Source: Massilia sp.
GTDB lineage: Bacteria > Pseudomonadota > Gammaproteobacteria > Burkholderiales > Burkholderiaceae_D
DNA length: 64,000 nt
Assembly (NCBI GenBank): GCA_025359245.1
Contig: JANYGW010000144.1
Coordinates: 1-64,000 of the forward strand
Reading direction: 5' to 3'
Position 1 is the first letter of the stretch. Every line of letters starts with the position of its first letter. Both the position numbers and the translations under genes were made by a program. The notes beneath the pieces were generated by a model that searched no databases, was not told the DNA's origin, and saw only the letters and a program-made list of their open reading frames with translations. Shown here in pieces: positions 12,887 to 21,673 of the stretch.

Positions 12887-12950
12887 ATTATTCGGGCCGC
12901 CGCGTTATTTTTGTTCGAAATAAAACCGTGTTGCCCTACAATGGCAGCAC

Positions 12951-13532
12951 ATGCCCACGACCACCACCGACGAAGAGCTGATGCTGCGCTACCGCGATGG
13001 CGACCTGCGCGCATTCGAGGAGCTGTACGGCCGCCACCGGGTCGGCCTGTACCGCTTTATCGCGTGGCGCTCGCCGCGGGTCGACTGGGTCGATGAAATC
13101 GTGCAGGACAGCTGGGCCAACCTGCACCACGCGCGCAACCGCTACCAGCCCGACGCCAGTTTCCGCACCTATCTGTACCAGATCGCACGCAACCGCCTGC
13201 TCGACCTGTTGCGCCAGCAGGCGCCGCTGCTGGCGGCCGAGCTGGGCACCGGCACGGATGGACGCGACGTGTTTGACGCGCTGGCCGATGCGGCGCAGGA
13301 TGTGCAGACACCCGACGCGGCGCTCGCCACCAAGCAGCGCAACGACAGCCTGCACCAGGCCCTGGCGGCCTTGCCGAGCGAGCAAAAGGAAGCGCTCGTG
13401 CTGCACCAGTTCAGCGGCATGAGCCTGGCCGAAATTGCCGCGGTGGTGGCCGCGCCGGTGGAAACGGTCAAGAGCCGCCTGCGTTACGCGATGCGCAAGC
13501 TGCGCGAAGGGAGCCTGAGTGAACAAGGATGA
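12951..13532 (+). CDS. ECF-type RNA polymerase sigma factor
   Basis: MLRYRDGDLRAFEELYGRHR, DWVDEIVQDSWANLHHARNRY, region 4 GMSLAEIAAVVAAPVETVKSRLRYAMRKLRE. Confidence 0.92.
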   Translation: MPTTTTDEELMLRYRDGDLRAFEELYGRHRVGLYRFIAWRSPRVDWVDEIVQDSWANLHHARNRYQPDASFRTYLYQIARNRLLDLLRQQAPLLAAELGTGTDGRDVFDALADAAQDVQTPDAALATKQRNDSLHQALAALPSEQKEALVLHQFSGMSLAEIAAVVAAPVETVKSRLRYAMRKLREGSLSEQG

Positions 13533-14496
13533 CATGAGCGACGACGCCGAATTCGACGCCTTCCTCAAAGGGGAGGGCGAGCTGTCACGCCGCCTGCAGG
13601 GCATGCAGCAGGACGCCCCGGGCGCCGCGCTCGACGCCGCCATTCTGCAGCGCGCCAGGGACTTGATGGCGCAGGAAGCGCGTCCGGCCGCTGCCAACGA
13701 TCCGGGCGAGAAGCCGCTTGCGCCACGCCTGGCCGGACCTGGCTGGCGCTGGCGCTTGCCGGGTGCGATCGCGGCCACGGTGCTGGCAGGCGTGTTCGCG
13801 CACCAGGCCTTCCAGGCCAGTGCGGACCTGGAGCGCCAGGCCGGCCTGCCGGCTGAAGTGAGCGTGCATATGACGGACCAGCCGGCGGCAGCGCCGCCTG
13901 CGCCGATGATGGAGGCTGTTGCGCCGGCGCCGGCGCCGATGATGGTGCCGGCCCCGCCCCCGGCAGCGCAAACCGATGCTCTTGCGCGCAACCGCGCGCC
14001 TGCAAAGCCAATGCAAAAAATGGACGGCGAGGCTGCACGGTCCGCGCCCGAAGCGCCGATGCAGTCGGTGGAAATCACGGCAACACGGCCAAAAGCATAC
14101 TCGGCCGAGACGGCATTGCCGATAGCAGCCATGACGCGTGAGTCTTTGGCGCCGCCGCCGCCGCCCGCGCCAGCGTCTGTCGCAGAGTACAAGGCGGCGC
14201 CGGCCATGCCCGCAGCCGCTCCCGTCAGCGCGGGCTTCGCAGCCGCGGATCAGCGCGAACAAATGCAGTCCGCCGACAAGGCGGCGCGCCAGGAACAGGA
14301 ACGGGACTACAGTGTCAGCAAACGCGGTGTGGCTGCGCCGAAGACAGCGGCCGAGTGGCTGGCCGCAATCGAGGCCAAACTGGGCACCGGCAAAGATACC
14401 GAAGTCCTGATCCAGTGGCGTGCCTTTCGCCAGGCCTATCCGGGCTATCCGGTGCCGCAAACGACCGAAGAGAAAATCAAGGCGATCGAGCAATAG
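13519..14496 (+). CDS. Anti-sigma-like membrane protein with Ala/Pro-rich periplasmic region
   Basis: Overlaps the sigma gene; single TM (WRWRLPGAIAATVLAGVFAHQAF); contains VEITATRPKAYSAETALPIAAMT. Confidence 0.65.
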   Translation: MNKDDMSDDAEFDAFLKGEGELSRRLQGMQQDAPGAALDAAILQRARDLMAQEARPAAANDPGEKPLAPRLAGPGWRWRLPGAIAATVLAGVFAHQAFQASADLERQAGLPAEVSVHMTDQPAAAPPAPMMEAVAPAPAPMMVPAPPPAAQTDALARNRAPAKPMQKMDGEAARSAPEAPMQSVEITATRPKAYSAETALPIAAMTRESLAPPPPPAPASVAEYKAAPAMPAAAPVSAGFAAADQREQMQSADKAARQEQERDYSVSKRGVAAPKTAAEWLAAIEAKLGTGKDTEVLIQWRAFRQAYPGYPVPQTTEEKIKAIEQ

Positions 14497-14547
14497 GAAA
14501 GGGCAGACGCGCACGTTTGCCCTGGCCGTTTGCGCGCGCCGATTTGG

Positions 14548-17538
14548 CTATGGCTTGACCTCAAACTCCCCGACGAACACGTTGTCGCTCTGATTCTTCA
14601 GGCGCAAGGTGATCAGCTTTTCCTGCTGTGCCGCAGTACCGAAGGCGCTGGTCAATTTCACTTGCAAGGTGGTCGCGCCGGCCAATACCTGCTGCCGGTT
14701 GCCATAGAAATTAGCACTGATCTGGTATTTTCCGGGTTTGGCGTGGCGCAGCGCGAATTCTTCAGGCCCATAACCTCCGGTGAAGTCTTGCGACATCATG
14801 CCGCCCTGGGCGGTCCGGTTGTGCCCGTAAAAGCACGTCTCGCGGTCCGGATCGGTCACGTGCAGGTCGATGTCGGTGTTGTCCGCATCCCAGGTCAACA
14901 CCACGCGCAAGTCGAGCGGCAGGTTGGCCAGCAGGCGCTTGTCGATTGCACTCGTATCGAGACGCTTGCCCGAGGTCGCGATCAGCGCATTCAAGTCCGT
15001 CAGCGCGATCGTCTCGATGTCGGGGAAGCGGGCGGCCCACGGACGCAGCGCCACTTCGTACAGCTTGTCGATCGCCTCTTGTGGCCGTCCCGCCGCAGCG
15101 AGCGCAAGGCCGAGGTCACGGAACGACTGCGGTTCTTCGGCCGCGATGCGCAATACCTCTTCGAATACCGGCACGGCCAGCCGGGGCGCCTCGGCCTGCA
15201 GCAGCCGGTAGCCAAGGATGCGCAGGACGGCGCGGTTTTCGAGGTCCATTTCGGCCAGGTTGGACAGCACGCGCAGGGCAAGGTCGCGCTGCCCCTTGGC
15301 CAGCAGGACATCGGCGGCGTCGAGGTAGAAGGCGCTGCTGTTGGCATACTCTGGTTTCTGGTCCAGGTAGACCTGGTAGACATCGGCGGGCGCCGCAGCG
15401 CGCAGGCGCTCCGTGTAGGACGCGTTCGGAACCCACTTCTTGAGAGCCATGCCGATCTGCGGCTGCGGCGACGGCGCCGCCGACTTGTCCGCGCCGGAAA
15501 ATCCGGCCTGGATTTCCACGCGCTGCAGGGCCATGGGGGCCGGCGCTGGCGGTGGCGCAGGCACAGGCGCTGGCGAGAACGCCATCGATGCAGGCGCGGA
15601 AGGCGCGATTTCGCTGTGCGTCATTGCCGCTATTGGCAGCGCCGTCTCCAAATTGAGGGCACGAATGCGGGTGGCAGTCACTTCGACCACTGGCGCATTG
15701 GACGGCTCGGGCAGGCTTGTCCGGACCCCGGCCCGCTTCTGCGCCGCGTCCTGGCGCGTCGGGTTCAGCGGCCCCTGGTTCGGCGCCGCTTTCGGAGGCG
15801 CGCTATTCCACCAGCGCTTGCGCGCCGCGAACATCTGCACGACCTGCTCGAAATGGTCGCTGCGCGAGCGTGCGCGTTCGCCGTTGCGCAAGTCAGTCTG
15901 GCGTTTGAATTCGGCCTCAAGCTCGGGCGGCGGCGCAATGTCATAGCGCACGTAGTCGGCGAGCTGCTCGAGCACGATCAGCGAAGTTTCGCGGGTCGGA
16001 ATGCCGAAGCGGCGGCCGATGCGTCCGATCTCGCTGCGATGGGCTTCGAATTCCCCTGCGAGCGCGCGCAGGCGAAACCCGGCCCAGGTGGCGCCGGCGT
16101 TCGGATGCTGGGGCGCGTCGGCAGGAATCGGCAAGACCAGTCGCATCGGCTTGCCGCCGTTCGACAGGGTCAGCACCAGTTCGGCCCGGGACGACAGGAT
16201 GCGGCCGGCGACCCGCAGCATGCCATTGTTGACCGTGTGCGAGTCGACCTCGATGTCGGTGGCGCCGGTGGCGCTGATCTGTTCGACCCGCGCATCCTGG
16301 AACAGCAAGGCCTGGGCGGCGGCGCCGGGCGTGGCGCGCGCGATCTGGATCAGCTGTCCGTGCGCGCGTTCGGCCAGCGCGGCGAGGCGGCCGCTGTCGG
16401 ACGAGGGCGCGGAATTGAGCGCAAACAGCCGCTGGTGCGCGGCCAGCACGGGAAAGTGGGCGCCGCCGTAGTTCGACAGGCCGTCGCTGAACAGCAGGTA
16501 TTGGTCGACTGCGGCCTGCGGCTGCCAGTCATTGAGCGCGCTGGCGCCGTCGTACACGGTTTTTTCCAGTGCGCGGCGCAGGGCGCTCCAATTGCCGCCG
16601 GCGACCTTGAAAGTCTGCAGCGTTTCCGGGCGGTCGCGCAGCCGGGTCAGGCGCACCTCGACATTGCCCAGCGCGCTGAAATAGCGATCCAGTTCGGCCA
16701 GTTCGGCGTCGAGCATGCGCGCGGCGCCAGAACCCGAACTGTCCCACAGCAGCCCGATGACGCGCGGGGCGGGACGCGGCGCGCGCACCGGCTGGACCGG
16801 CACCTCGGCCACGAACCAGCTGGTGCCGTCCAGCTGCTGGCGGTAGACGCGCGCGCCATCCTGGGCCACGGTCAGCACTTCGATGCCTTCGGACGGCAGC
16901 TGGCCCTCGGCATAGTTGATGTGCGCCTCGAAGCCATTGCCGGCAGGGGCGAAATGCAGGGTGCCGGTGGGCGCTGCGGCGCTGTCGTTGACCTCGACAG
17001 TGAGCTCGACATGACGGGCGTCGCCGTACGCCTTGGGCAGGCGGTAGACCCACTGGGCGCCGCGCCGCTGCAGCGTTTCGGTGTATTTGAGCTCGACCGT
17101 GCGGGTGCCGCGCGGACCAATCGGGTAGACGCGCAGCTTGAAGTTGTTGCCCTGGGTGAGTTCGAGCAGGCCAGGATCGACGCCGCGCCGTACGATTTCC
17201 TCGAATACTTCGCGCCCGCGTGCCTTGTCGACCGGCACCGCGGCGCGCATATGGCCATCGATATCGAGCGCGAAGGCGGTGATCTGCTGGCCGTCGGCGA
17301 GCGGAAACTGCAGATTGCCTTCGAGCTGGCGCCGGTTCGGATTGAAGAACACCATCTTGACGCTGGTTTCGGCCATGCCGCCGCTGATGCCGGCCCGGAT
17401 CGACAGCTGCTGCAGCGCGATTGGTTCGGCGCCGGGATCGGACAGCATCAGGCGCGGCGGCGCCAGCGTTTGCGAGAAGGCCGGGACGGCGCCCGCGCAA
17501 ACCAGGATCAGGGTGGCAAAGCGCATCAACATCGTCAT
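14548..17538 (-). CDS. VIT/VWA domain protein with C-terminal DUF2135-like domain
   Basis: VIT-like N-terminus (ISGGMAETSVKMVFFNPNRRQLEGNLQFPLADGQQITAFALDIDGHM), VWA MIDAS-like LLWDSSGSG, C-terminal WDADNTDIDLHVTDPDRETCFYGHNRT. Confidence 0.85.
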   Translation of the reverse strand: MTMLMRFATLILVCAGAVPAFSQTLAPPRLMLSDPGAEPIALQQLSIRAGISGGMAETSVKMVFFNPNRRQLEGNLQFPLADGQQITAFALDIDGHMRAAVPVDKARGREVFEEIVRRGVDPGLLELTQGNNFKLRVYPIGPRGTRTVELKYTETLQRRGAQWVYRLPKAYGDARHVELTVEVNDSAAAPTGTLHFAPAGNGFEAHINYAEGQLPSEGIEVLTVAQDGARVYRQQLDGTSWFVAEVPVQPVRAPRPAPRVIGLLWDSSGSGAARMLDAELAELDRYFSALGNVEVRLTRLRDRPETLQTFKVAGGNWSALRRALEKTVYDGASALNDWQPQAAVDQYLLFSDGLSNYGGAHFPVLAAHQRLFALNSAPSSDSGRLAALAERAHGQLIQIARATPGAAAQALLFQDARVEQISATGATDIEVDSHTVNNGMLRVAGRILSSRAELVLTLSNGGKPMRLVLPIPADAPQHPNAGATWAGFRLRALAGEFEAHRSEIGRIGRRFGIPTRETSLIVLEQLADYVRYDIAPPPELEAEFKRQTDLRNGERARSRSDHFEQVVQMFAARKRWWNSAPPKAAPNQGPLNPTRQDAAQKRAGVRTSLPEPSNAPVVEVTATRIRALNLETALPIAAMTHSEIAPSAPASMAFSPAPVPAPPPAPAPMALQRVEIQAGFSGADKSAAPSPQPQIGMALKKWVPNASYTERLRAAAPADVYQVYLDQKPEYANSSAFYLDAADVLLAKGQRDLALRVLSNLAEMDLENRAVLRILGYRLLQAEAPRLAVPVFEEVLRIAAEEPQSFRDLGLALAAAGRPQEAIDKLYEVALRPWAARFPDIETIALTDLNALIATSGKRLDTSAIDKRLLANLPLDLRVVLTWDADNTDIDLHVTDPDRETCFYGHNRTAQGGMMSQDFTGGYGPEEFALRHAKPGKYQISANFYGNRQQVLAGATTLQVKLTSAFGTAAQQEKLITLRLKNQSDNVFVGEFEVKP

Positions 17539-18253: not shown

Positions 18254-20725
18254 ATGGCTGACCCCCTGAAGCTCTACAAGTCCAAGCGCAACTTTGCCGT
18301 CACGGCCGAGCCGGCCGAGGGCGGGCAGGGCGGCGGCGCGGCGCTCACCTTCGTCATCCAGAAGCATTGGGCCAGCCGCTTGCACTATGATTTCCGCTTG
18401 GAACTAGATGGCACGATGAAGAGCTGGGCCGTGCCGAAAGGGCCCAGCTACGATCCCGGCGACAAGCGCATGGCCGTGCAGGTCGAGGACCATCCGCTCG
18501 CCTACGCGGATTTCGAAGGAACTATTCCCGAGGATCAATATGGCGCAGGAAAGGTGATTATCTGGGACAAGGGGACCTGGCAGCCGCTGGCCGAACCGCA
18601 CCAGGGCTACGCCAGCGGCAACCTGAAGTTCGAGCTGCACGGCCACAAGATGCACGGCAAGTGGGCACTGGTGCGCATCAAGGACAAGGGCGAGAAGCAG
18701 GCGCCGTGGCTGCTGATCAAGGAAAAGGACGCGCTGGCCCGGCCCCATGCCGAGTTTTCCGTCGTCGATCAAATGCCCGACAGCGTCGTCGCGCTGCCCG
18801 CCGCGGCGACCAGCAAGCGGGCGCGCGCCCAGGCGGTGCCGGCCGAGCTGCCGGCGTCGCTGGCGCCCGAACTGGCCACGCTGGTCGAGCAGCCGCCGTC
18901 GTCGCCGGCCGACTGGATCTTCGAGATCAAGTTCGACGGCTACCGCCTGCTGGCGCGCATCGAGGGCAAGCAGGTCCGCCTGTTCACCCGCAATGGCCAC
19001 GACTGGACCCACAAGCTGGGCCACTTGCACCAGGCGCTGCTGAAGGCGAAGCTGCCGGACGGCTGGTACGACGGCGAAATCGTCGTCCACGATGCGCATG
19101 GACGCCCCGATTTCGGCTTGCTGCAGCTGGCCTTCGACGGCGCCGGCAGCGCCGACATCGTCTACTTCCTGTTCGACGCGCCTTACCTGGACGGCAGCGA
19201 CCTGCGCCAGGTGCCGCTCGAAACGCGCCGGGCGATGCTCAAGGCGGTGCTCGACAAGGGCGTACCGGCCGCGATCCGCTTCAGCGAGGCGTTCGGCGGC
19301 GACCCGCAGGAACTGGCCGCGGCGGCCTGCCACATGGGACTCGAAGGCATGATCGGCAAGCGCCGCGATTCGCGCTATGTGCAGCGGCGCTCGGCCGACT
19401 GGATCAAGCTCAAATGCGGCCAGCGCCAGGAGTTCGTCATTTGCGGCTATACCGATCCGCAGGGGGCGCGCACCGGCATCGGCGCGCTGCTGCTTGGCAC
19501 GCACGACGAGAACGGCGTGCTGCAGTACGCGGGCAATGTCGGCACGGGCTTCAATGAGGCGACGCTGCGCAGCCTCAAGACGCAGCTCGACGCGCTGGCC
19601 ACCGACACCAGCCCGTTTCCGCCCAGGGCGGTGGCCGGCCGCAAGCATCACTGGGTCAAGCCGCGCCTGATCGCCGAGGTCAGCTTCGCCGAATGGACCT
19701 CATCGGGCGCGATCCGGCATGCGGTGTTCCATGGACTGCGCAGCGACAAGAGCGCCAAAAAAATCAGCCGCGAGAAGGTGCAAGCAATGGAGGATGTCGT
19801 GCCAGCGCATACCGAACCGGCCGCGCCGGTGGGCAAGCTGCCGCCCAGCCTGAAGATCAGCAACGGCGAGCGCATCATCGACGCGCAAAGCGGCGCCACC
19901 AAGCTGGACCTGGTGCGCTACTACGCGCTGGTGGGGACGCTGATGCTGGTGCACCTGAAGGGGCGACCGGTATCGCTGGTGCGCGCGCCGGGCGGCGTGG
20001 GCGGCGAACTGTTCTTCCAGAAGCATGCCGATGTCGCCAGGCTGGCGGGCGTGAAGCAAATGGACCAGGCGCTCGACCCCGGGCATCCGCCGATGCTGGA
20101 GGTGGCCAGCGTGCAGGGCATCCTGTCGGCGGCGCAGTGGAATGTGGTCGAGTTCCATACCCAGAACGCGGTGGGCAAGGCGTACGACACGCCGAACCGG
20201 ATGGTGTTCGACCTTGATCCCGGCGAGGGCGTTGGCTGGAGCACAATGCAGGAGGCCGCGCAGCTGATGCACGCCTTTCTCGATGAACTGGGGCTGCCGT
20301 GCTTCCTCAAGACCAGCGGCGGCAAGGGGCTGCACGTGGTGGTGCCGATCAAGGGCGGCCTCGATTGGGATACGGTCAAGGATTTTTCGCAGGCCATCGT
20401 GCGCCACCTGTCGGGCGCCTTGCCGGACCGGTTTGCGCTCAAGAGCGGGCCGAAGAACCGGGTCGGCAAGATCTTCATCGACTACCTGCGCAACGGGCAG
20501 GGCGCGACCACCGCCTGCGCCTGGTCGGCGCGGGTGCGGCCGGGCTTGGGGATTTCGGTGCCGCTGGCGTGGGATGAACTGGCACGCCTCAAGGCCGGCG
20601 ACCAGTGGAATATCATGAATGCCCATACACGGCTCGACCAGGGCAATGCGCCGTGGGCGGACTATGCGAAGTCGGCCAAGACGCTGACCGCGGCGATGAA
20701 AAAGCTCGACTTCACGCCGTCCTGA
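18254..20725 (+). CDS. ligD: ATP-dependent DNA ligase LigD (phosphoesterase-ligase-polymerase)
   Basis: HWASRLHYDFRLELDGTMKSWAVPKGPS (PE), EIKFDGYRLLARI (ligase KxDG), C-terminal primase/polymerase motifs (DLDPGEGV, KTSGGKGLHVVVPI). Confidence 0.96.
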   Translation: MADPLKLYKSKRNFAVTAEPAEGGQGGGAALTFVIQKHWASRLHYDFRLELDGTMKSWAVPKGPSYDPGDKRMAVQVEDHPLAYADFEGTIPEDQYGAGKVIIWDKGTWQPLAEPHQGYASGNLKFELHGHKMHGKWALVRIKDKGEKQAPWLLIKEKDALARPHAEFSVVDQMPDSVVALPAAATSKRARAQAVPAELPASLAPELATLVEQPPSSPADWIFEIKFDGYRLLARIEGKQVRLFTRNGHDWTHKLGHLHQALLKAKLPDGWYDGEIVVHDAHGRPDFGLLQLAFDGAGSADIVYFLFDAPYLDGSDLRQVPLETRRAMLKAVLDKGVPAAIRFSEAFGGDPQELAAAACHMGLEGMIGKRRDSRYVQRRSADWIKLKCGQRQEFVICGYTDPQGARTGIGALLLGTHDENGVLQYAGNVGTGFNEATLRSLKTQLDALATDTSPFPPRAVAGRKHHWVKPRLIAEVSFAEWTSSGAIRHAVFHGLRSDKSAKKISREKVQAMEDVVPAHTEPAAPVGKLPPSLKISNGERIIDAQSGATKLDLVRYYALVGTLMLVHLKGRPVSLVRAPGGVGGELFFQKHADVARLAGVKQMDQALDPGHPPMLEVASVQGILSAAQWNVVEFHTQNAVGKAYDTPNRMVFDLDPGEGVGWSTMQEAAQLMHAFLDELGLPCFLKTSGGKGLHVVVPIKGGLDWDTVKDFSQAIVRHLSGALPDRFALKSGPKNRVGKIFIDYLRNGQGATTACAWSARVRPGLGISVPLAWDELARLKAGDQWNIMNAHTRLDQGNAPWADYAKSAKTLTAAMKKLDFTPS

Positions 20726-21673
20726 TTACGCCGATTTGCGTCGGGCCGGCGCTGCCCTGGCTTTGGCGGGTGGCTTTGCAGCGGCTTTGGCGGGTGCTTT
20801 TGCCGCCGTTTTGCGTTTCGGTGCAGGCGGTGCCTCTTCTTCATCGTCGTCGTTGGCCGCCCGGGTCTTGCCTGCCGGTTTCTTGCCCAGGCTTTTCTGC
20901 AGCAGCGCGACCAGGTCGACCACGTTGCCCGTGTGTGCCGGCGCCTTCTCCTTGCCGGGCATGGTGACGGTCTTGGTCTGGTGTTCCCTGATTTTTTTCT
21001 CGACCAGCGCCAGCACATCGTCGCGGTAGCTGTCGTGGTACTGCGCCGGCTTCCAGTCTTCGCTCATGCCTTCGACCAGCGCCATCGCCATCTTCAGTTC
21101 CTTGTCGGTGATGGCGGCCGCCTTGGCCGTCGAGGAGGGGATGTTCAACTCGTCGGTCGAACGGATCTCGTCGTCGTAGCGCAGCGTGTTCATGACGATC
21201 ACGTCGCCCACGCATACCAGCGCCGCCAGGTGCTGCTTGACCCGGATGACGACGTTGGCGATGCCGATCTTGCCGGTCTTGCGTAGTGTTTCGCGCAGCA
21301 GCGCGTAGACCTTGTCGCCGCCCTTGCCGGGCGCCAGGTAATACGGGCTGTCGTAATACAGCAACGGCACCTGCTCGGCATCGACGAAGGCCAGGATGTC
21401 GATGGTCTGGGTCGCCTCGACGTTGGCGCGGCGCAGGTCTTCCTCGCTCAGCACCACGTATGCGCCGTCGGCGTATGCATAGCCCTTGACGATGTCGTCC
21501 CAGCTCACTTCCTGGTTATTGTTCTTGTTATAGCGCTTGAAGCCGACCGGCGAGAAATCGCGCCGATCGAGCATGGTCAGGTCGAGCGCGTGTTCGCTGG
21601 TGGCCGAGTACATTTCGACCGGAATATGCACCAGCCCGAAGCTGATAGCGCCTTTCCATAAACTGCGTGCCAT
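20726..21673 (-). CDS. ku: Non-homologous end-joining protein Ku
   Basis: MARSLWKGAISFGLVHIPVEMYSAT; Ala/Lys/Pro-rich C-terminal tail. Confidence 0.97.
   Translation of the reverse strand: MARSLWKGAISFGLVHIPVEMYSATSEHALDLTMLDRRDFSPVGFKRYNKNNNQEVSWDDIVKGYAYADGAYVVLSEEDLRRANVEATQTIDILAFVDAEQVPLLYYDSPYYLAPGKGGDKVYALLRETLRKTGKIGIANVVIRVKQHLAALVCVGDVIVMNTLRYDDEIRSTDELNIPSSTAKAAAITDKELKMAMALVEGMSEDWKPAQYHDSYRDDVLALVEKKIREHQTKTVTMPGKEKAPAHTGNVVDLVALLQKSLGKKPAGKTRAANDDDEEEAPPAPKRKTAAKAPAKAAAKPPAKARAAPARRKSA

Follow-up and report, generated by a model that had tools for sequence, protein, structure and literature searches.

TonB-dependent receptor-like tags in disordered linkers of an anti-sigma-like and a VIT/VWA-like protein of Massilia: a possible TonB-docking motif

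We analyzed a window of 64,000 nucleotides from a Massilia sp. contig, in which an ECF sigma factor gene is followed by the gene of an anti-sigma-like membrane protein (hereafter, ANTI), and the gene of an exported VIT/VWA-like protein (hereafter, VIT) is convergent with the latter (Table 1). The ANTI gene has a GTG start codon and has 14 nt in common with the sigma gene. No known anti-sigma domain was matched in ANTI with Pfam or NCBIfam; from its gene context alone, ANTI is a putative anti-sigma factor. The ORFs at 8-23 kb of the window encode efflux, ECF, LigD/Ku and GGDEF-like proteins. A LigD-like DNA ligase gene (18254-20725, + strand; bacterial end joining) adjoins the locus and is convergent with a Ku-like gene (20726-21673, - strand), both named from their sequences. 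In the window (12920-12951) and in many orthologous loci, a -10 box of the TACAAT/TACACT type (e.g. CCTACAATGGCAGCACATG) is found ~6-9 nt 5' of the ECF start codon. Its closeness to the start codon suggests a leaderless sigma mRNA transcribed from a housekeeping-type promoter. Definition of the sigma regulon through an autoregulated promoter was rejected, since the upstream regions have this housekeeping-type TACAAT box instead.

Table 1. Features of the locus, with window coordinates and the basis of each assignment
Feature	Position	Strand	Basis
ECF sigma factor gene, PRK12513-like	12951..13532	+	first gene of locus; Pfam Sigma70_r2/r4 and NCBIfam matches
Anti-sigma-like single-pass membrane protein (ANTI)	13519..14496	+	position, overlap, family alignment, AF2
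TBDR-like tag VEITATRPKAYSAETALPIAAMTRESLAP in ANTI, aa 184-212	14068..14154	+	TonB-box-like core and plug-start-like part; pLDDT <50
C-terminal helical domain of ANTI, WLxxIxxxL...YPxYPVP, aa 277-324	14347..14490	+	conserved in alignment; pLDDT 92-95
VIT/VWA-like + TPR + DUF2135 exported protein (VIT)	14548..17538	-	Pfam VIT, DUF2135, TPR; AF2
Disordered linker of VIT, aa 586-700	15439..15783	-	AF2 pLDDT 25-39
TBDR-like tag VEVTATRIRALNLETALPIAAMTHSEIAP in VIT, aa 618-646	15601..15687	-	sequence, TBDR-only profile

ANTI and VIT each carry a short segment that resembles the N-terminus of TonB-dependent receptors (TBDRs), that is, the TonB box and the first plug strand. In the AF2 model of ANTI, which comprises helices at residues 5-52, a membrane helix at 79-107, a disordered stretch at 108-240 and a confident helical domain at 277-324, this tag lies inside the disordered linker between the membrane helix and the C-terminal domain. 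The VIT tag is likewise inside disorder (586-700), the remainder of the protein being folded. The AF2 models thus agree with the original prediction, which had placed the shared motif between Ala/Pro-rich linkers; both of its peptides are present, and the position that it gave for the VIT peptide (15619-15690) was slightly off the exact one (15687-15601). Neither protein contains a complete plug or a 22-strand barrel, as Pfam and NCBIfam gave no Plug or receptor match and the AF2 folds differ.

A profile trained solely on the N-termini of 19 true receptors (the TBDR-only profile) was run over the 8268 ORFs of the collected loci. The ANTI segment was matched with an E-value of 2.4e-5 and the VIT segment with one of about 4e-4, while the best control shuffled within 20-aa windows reached 0.53. 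Among all ORFs, TBDRs ranked first, followed essentially only by ANTI (down to 2e-12), VIT, DUF4139, SIMPL and alpha-2-macroglobulin (A2M) proteins. The profile and the shuffles rule out chance similarity or a low-complexity linker. In the window genome, the other strong matches to the segments were TBDRs only; for example, the receptor sequence APMQRVEITGSAIRQVESETPLPVQIVTREQIEK of the same genome was aligned to the ANTI segment APMQSVEITATRPKAYSAETALPIAAMTRESLAP. The TonB-box-like core reads V-E-[IV]-T-A-T-R in the window, with TATR rather than TGSR, and V-x-V-T-G-S-R elsewhere. The window tags present a TonB-box core that matches the host's own receptors, within an accessible segment, and are probably copies or mimics of the periplasm-exposed TBDR N-terminus. 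Such tags are easily missed because curated domain models are silent on most carriers, including the two in the window.

The two window tags are 66% alike, and either is 41-50% alike to the genome's own receptors. The 10-residue sequence ETALPIAAMT is identical in ANTI and VIT with exactly five silent codon differences, and the ATA codons found in both tags are the only two among the 161 Ile codons of five neighbouring genes; our codon comparison confirmed the identity, the silent differences and the shared rare codon as first described. Over the 29 codons, 7 are identical, 12 synonymous and 10 replacement. Since 12 of the 19 conserved codons differ silently, this high synonymous divergence rules out a recent DNA copy between the two genes.

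Related loci were collected from Oxalobacteraceae and other genomes, some of them fragmentary, with a broad scan that used the VIT alignment. A tag was present in the disordered periplasmic linker of ~19 of the 44 ANTI in sigma-ANTI pairs, and 10 neighbouring VIT were tagged; these counts are approximate, as tags were called by means of a short core pattern. Further tagged VIT occurred in loci without a detected ECF gene (L133, L140 and L193). The position of the tag varies by clade, being either in the middle of the linker or directly before the C-terminal domain. In one ANTI (L090, genome G023), the same linker holds 54 aa of receptor sequence, which matched TIGR01782 (E-value 2.2e-20, profile positions 3-56) and Pfam Plug (29.2 bits, above the cut-off). 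On the sigma tree, tag presence requires at least 10 state changes (rows L070 and L136 being unreliable), indicating that the tag was often gained and lost. The distant class-level ANTI relatives that we examined carried no tag. About half of the orthologous loci have none, so that the tag appears to be a recurrent add-on and not a core part; these untagged loci, together with changes that are mostly lineage-specific, indicate that the locus works without it. Widespread occurrence of the locus without the motif had been named beforehand as evidence against the idea, and it was found in part, yet together with repeated gain or loss and with constraint on the core in the Massilia ANTI.

Several loci are tagged in both ANTI and VIT, and many in one of them only. 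The co-occurrence of the two tags gave Fisher p values of 0.02-0.05 before correction for phylogeny and was not significant with phylogenetically independent pairs; co-evolution as an obligate pair is thus unsupported once phylogeny is considered. Some Massilia loci (L074, L071) contain two tandem VIT/VWA paralogues, one of which is shortened in L071. At another locus (L091, from G006, a single-contig assembly estimated to be 48% complete), the ANTI and VIT genes are split into several frames, probably by sequencing errors, and the tag is still legible.

In eight genomes, significant matches to the motif profile were found only in receptors, at this locus and in DUF4139/DUF4140 proteins, and weaker matches resolved to the A2M of the window genome, a SIMPL protein and more receptors. 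The tag is therefore not confined to ECF loci. In the DUF4139/DUF4140 proteins of four Massilia genomes (L226, L227, L228 and L229), a linker contains a tag of the QRVE[IV]TGSS type, which the orthologue of the window genome (L237) lacks; a SIMPL (DUF541) protein (L231, G007:C2:1076773) carries the tag QRVELTGSRIRSR. The bait region of one A2M (L262, G571:C235:3536) contains a tandem pair of receptor-like tags, and these repeat idiosyncrasies of the receptors encoded in the same genome (VNVVGSRI; RQVNKExAQPVQ). In the family of Pseudoxanthomonas G569, such an A2M was found in 5 of 61 genomes, and all five were tagged. The A2M tag is located between the BRD (bait-region) and A2M domains. In a profile alignment to E. 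coli ECAM, its location corresponds to the unaligned stretch 885-980, which includes the disordered bait region Arg923-Leu942; phmmer searches of single A2Ms against PDB gave no match, and the correspondence came from the profile. Of the Oxalobacteraceae A2Ms examined, 28 of 29 were untagged. Because most of them have another bait and no tag, the tagged A2M of the window genome is lineage-specific. Most Oxalobacteraceae A2Ms (L277-L303) have a highly conserved bait sequence, VETSTAQMQVVGKRHYGRKA-PAGGGGG, which is unusual for a bait region.

We further compared the constraint on different parts of the tag. In three Massilia ANTI, the 12-residue core QRVEITGSSIKR had 6 silent and no replacement sites, and the linker around it had replacements at 95 of 179 sites (core versus linker, p = 3e-4), so that the selection on the peptide proposed in the original prediction is visible here. 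The plug-like remainder decays, with 3 silent and 23 replacement codon differences. Core constraint was significant in these three taxa only and not in three other sets, DUF4139 included. Tagged A2Ms were 75% identical in the tag core and 47% in the flanks. In 38 non-receptor tags, a set partly gathered by the core pattern and hence biased toward it, the information was concentrated in V-x-[VI]-T-G-S-[RS], and the E and P that are invariant at the plug start of receptors were lost. The proposed likeness to the receptor plug is upheld by the profile as a likeness to the TBDR N-terminus, although it is the TonB-box core V-x-V-T-G-S-R, and not the plug, that persists across orthologues. Retention of the core with loss of the plug part speaks for a partner that recognizes the TonB box. 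The tags are also similar to receptors from the same lineage: QRVEITGSS, with Q-R before the core, occurs in receptors and tags of Oxalobacteraceae alike, LDxIxVTGSR occurs in both in Pseudoxanthomonas and G571, with L-D before the core in Xanthomonadaceae, and QKVEV and RSIT are shared by a tag and a receptor of G017.

Compared with the TBDR N-terminus (TIGR01782; Pfam Plug, PF07715), the tags have the same core and sometimes the same next plug strand; however, they are internal, lack a full plug or beta-barrel, and belong to inner-membrane ANTI or exported periplasmic proteins. B-group colicins and klebicin are likewise non-receptor proteins whose TonB box lies within an unstructured segment (PMC11658791), although colicins are imported toxins whereas the tag carriers are the cell's own envelope proteins. 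As in the FecI/FecR/FecA systems (PMC9249621, PMC11637429), an ECF sigma factor stands beside a membrane anti-sigma-like protein and a receptor-related element is present, but here that element is within ANTI itself. ANTI had no match to the FecR family in Pfam or NCBIfam, and a motif search of the window's contig for motif-bearing receptors matched ANTI and VIT only, which rules out membership in the FecIRA group and does not bear out the earlier reading of the locus by that analogy. Some tagged proteins are bacterial A2Ms (ECAM/YfhM, MagD; PMC4498604, PMC5764988), with the tag located in their bait region; we found no mention of a TBDR-like bait in the available passages of these two papers. 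We found no description of the tagged non-receptor proteins in the open-access literature, nor a joint paper on the TonB box and macroglobulin or on ECF sigma and inter-alpha-trypsin; the literature on the TonB box with anti-sigma factors deals with receptor signalling.

The accepted targets of TonB are outer-membrane receptors, imported toxins and a few substrates. We tentatively favour the possibility, to which we assign somewhat less than an even chance, that the tag serves as a portable docking motif for TonB and thereby links these envelope proteins to the Ton system. The core would act as a TonB-box-like strand, to which some proteins add the beginning of a plug, and would be displayed on disordered periplasmic segments. 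Docking of TonB, through occupancy or ExbBD force, might alter the exposure of the ANTI linker to a site-1 protease and thereby lead to release of the sigma factor, and VIT might be retained at this TonB or be a competitor for it. From the sequences, we infer both the partner, which would be TonB, and the direction in which a signal may pass through ANTI. The genomes checked carry 7-22 TonB_C domains, and precedents exist in the TonB box of colicins outside receptors (PMC11658791) and in a TonB-like protein that binds a non-receptor protein or substrate (PMC7593965, which reports Kd values of 10-60 uM for TBDR peptides). Docking is further supported by the TBDR-only profile, the 54 aa of receptor sequence in L090, the likeness of tags to receptors of the same lineage, their placement in predicted disorder and the core constraint in Massilia ANTI. 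Against it stand the untagged half of the orthologous loci, the significance of core constraint in the Massilia ANTI set only, the loss of significance of joint tagging after phylogeny, the TATR of the window tag in place of TGSR, and the 28 of 29 Oxalobacteraceae A2Ms without a tag. A broader and more doubtful proposition is that a docking peptide makes the anti-sigma, VIT/VWA and A2M proteins of TBDR-rich Proteobacteria clients of, or sensors for, the Ton motor. If TonB boxes are indeed present on endogenous regulators and protease traps, gene expression and envelope defence could come under direct control of the Ton motor, there could be a means of sensing how far the Ton system is occupied, and the role of TonB would extend beyond receptors and toxins.

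The strongest rivals to TonB docking are neutral capture and a shared protease bait. Under the former, Ala/Pro-rich N-terminal DNA of the numerous receptor genes recombines into Ala/Pro-rich linkers, where the inserts are tolerated and decay. The patchy distribution, with its many state changes (at least 10) on the sigma tree, is consistent with such a process, as are the decayed copies (L072), the fresh-looking 54-aa insert and the decaying plug part. However, the core of the three Massilia ANTI changes only silently within a fast-evolving linker, the window copies retain their 10-aa core despite five silent changes, the A2M tag core exceeds its flanks in identity (75% versus 47%), and strong matches are confined to a few exported families; we consider neutral capture unlikely. 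A protease bait, which we regard as rather improbable as well, would mimic the N-terminus that TBDRs expose, since a periplasmic protease with a cleavage site in that part of receptors should cut the carriers too: a cut in the ANTI linker would release sigma, and a cut in the A2M bait would spring the trap. The proteolysis reported for the FoxA receptor N-terminus in cell-surface signalling (PMC11637429) accords with this, as do the A2M tag, in a BRD-A2M segment matching ECAM 885-980 with its disordered bait region, and the ANTI tag, in the disordered periplasmic stretch at which one would expect site-1 cleavage. Against it, what is preserved is a beta-prone TonB-box core and no evident cleavage signature; for bait regions, accessibility is usually enough, and DUF4139 and SIMPL proteins have no known need for cleavage. 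Even as bait, mimicry of receptor N-termini by a sigma regulator and by a protease trap would represent a new surveillance logic.

Least probable among these alternatives, and in our judgment quite remote, is that the tags bind each other or an envelope partner other than TonB, such as a receptor barrel, a chaperone, or one another through ANTI-VIT strand pairing. The closer likeness of the two window tags to each other than to their own receptors (66% versus 41-50%) would fit this, as would the loci in which both proteins are tagged, but many loci have a single tag, the ANTI-VIT association is not significant after phylogeny correction, and the A2M and DUF4139 tags sit elsewhere in the genome.
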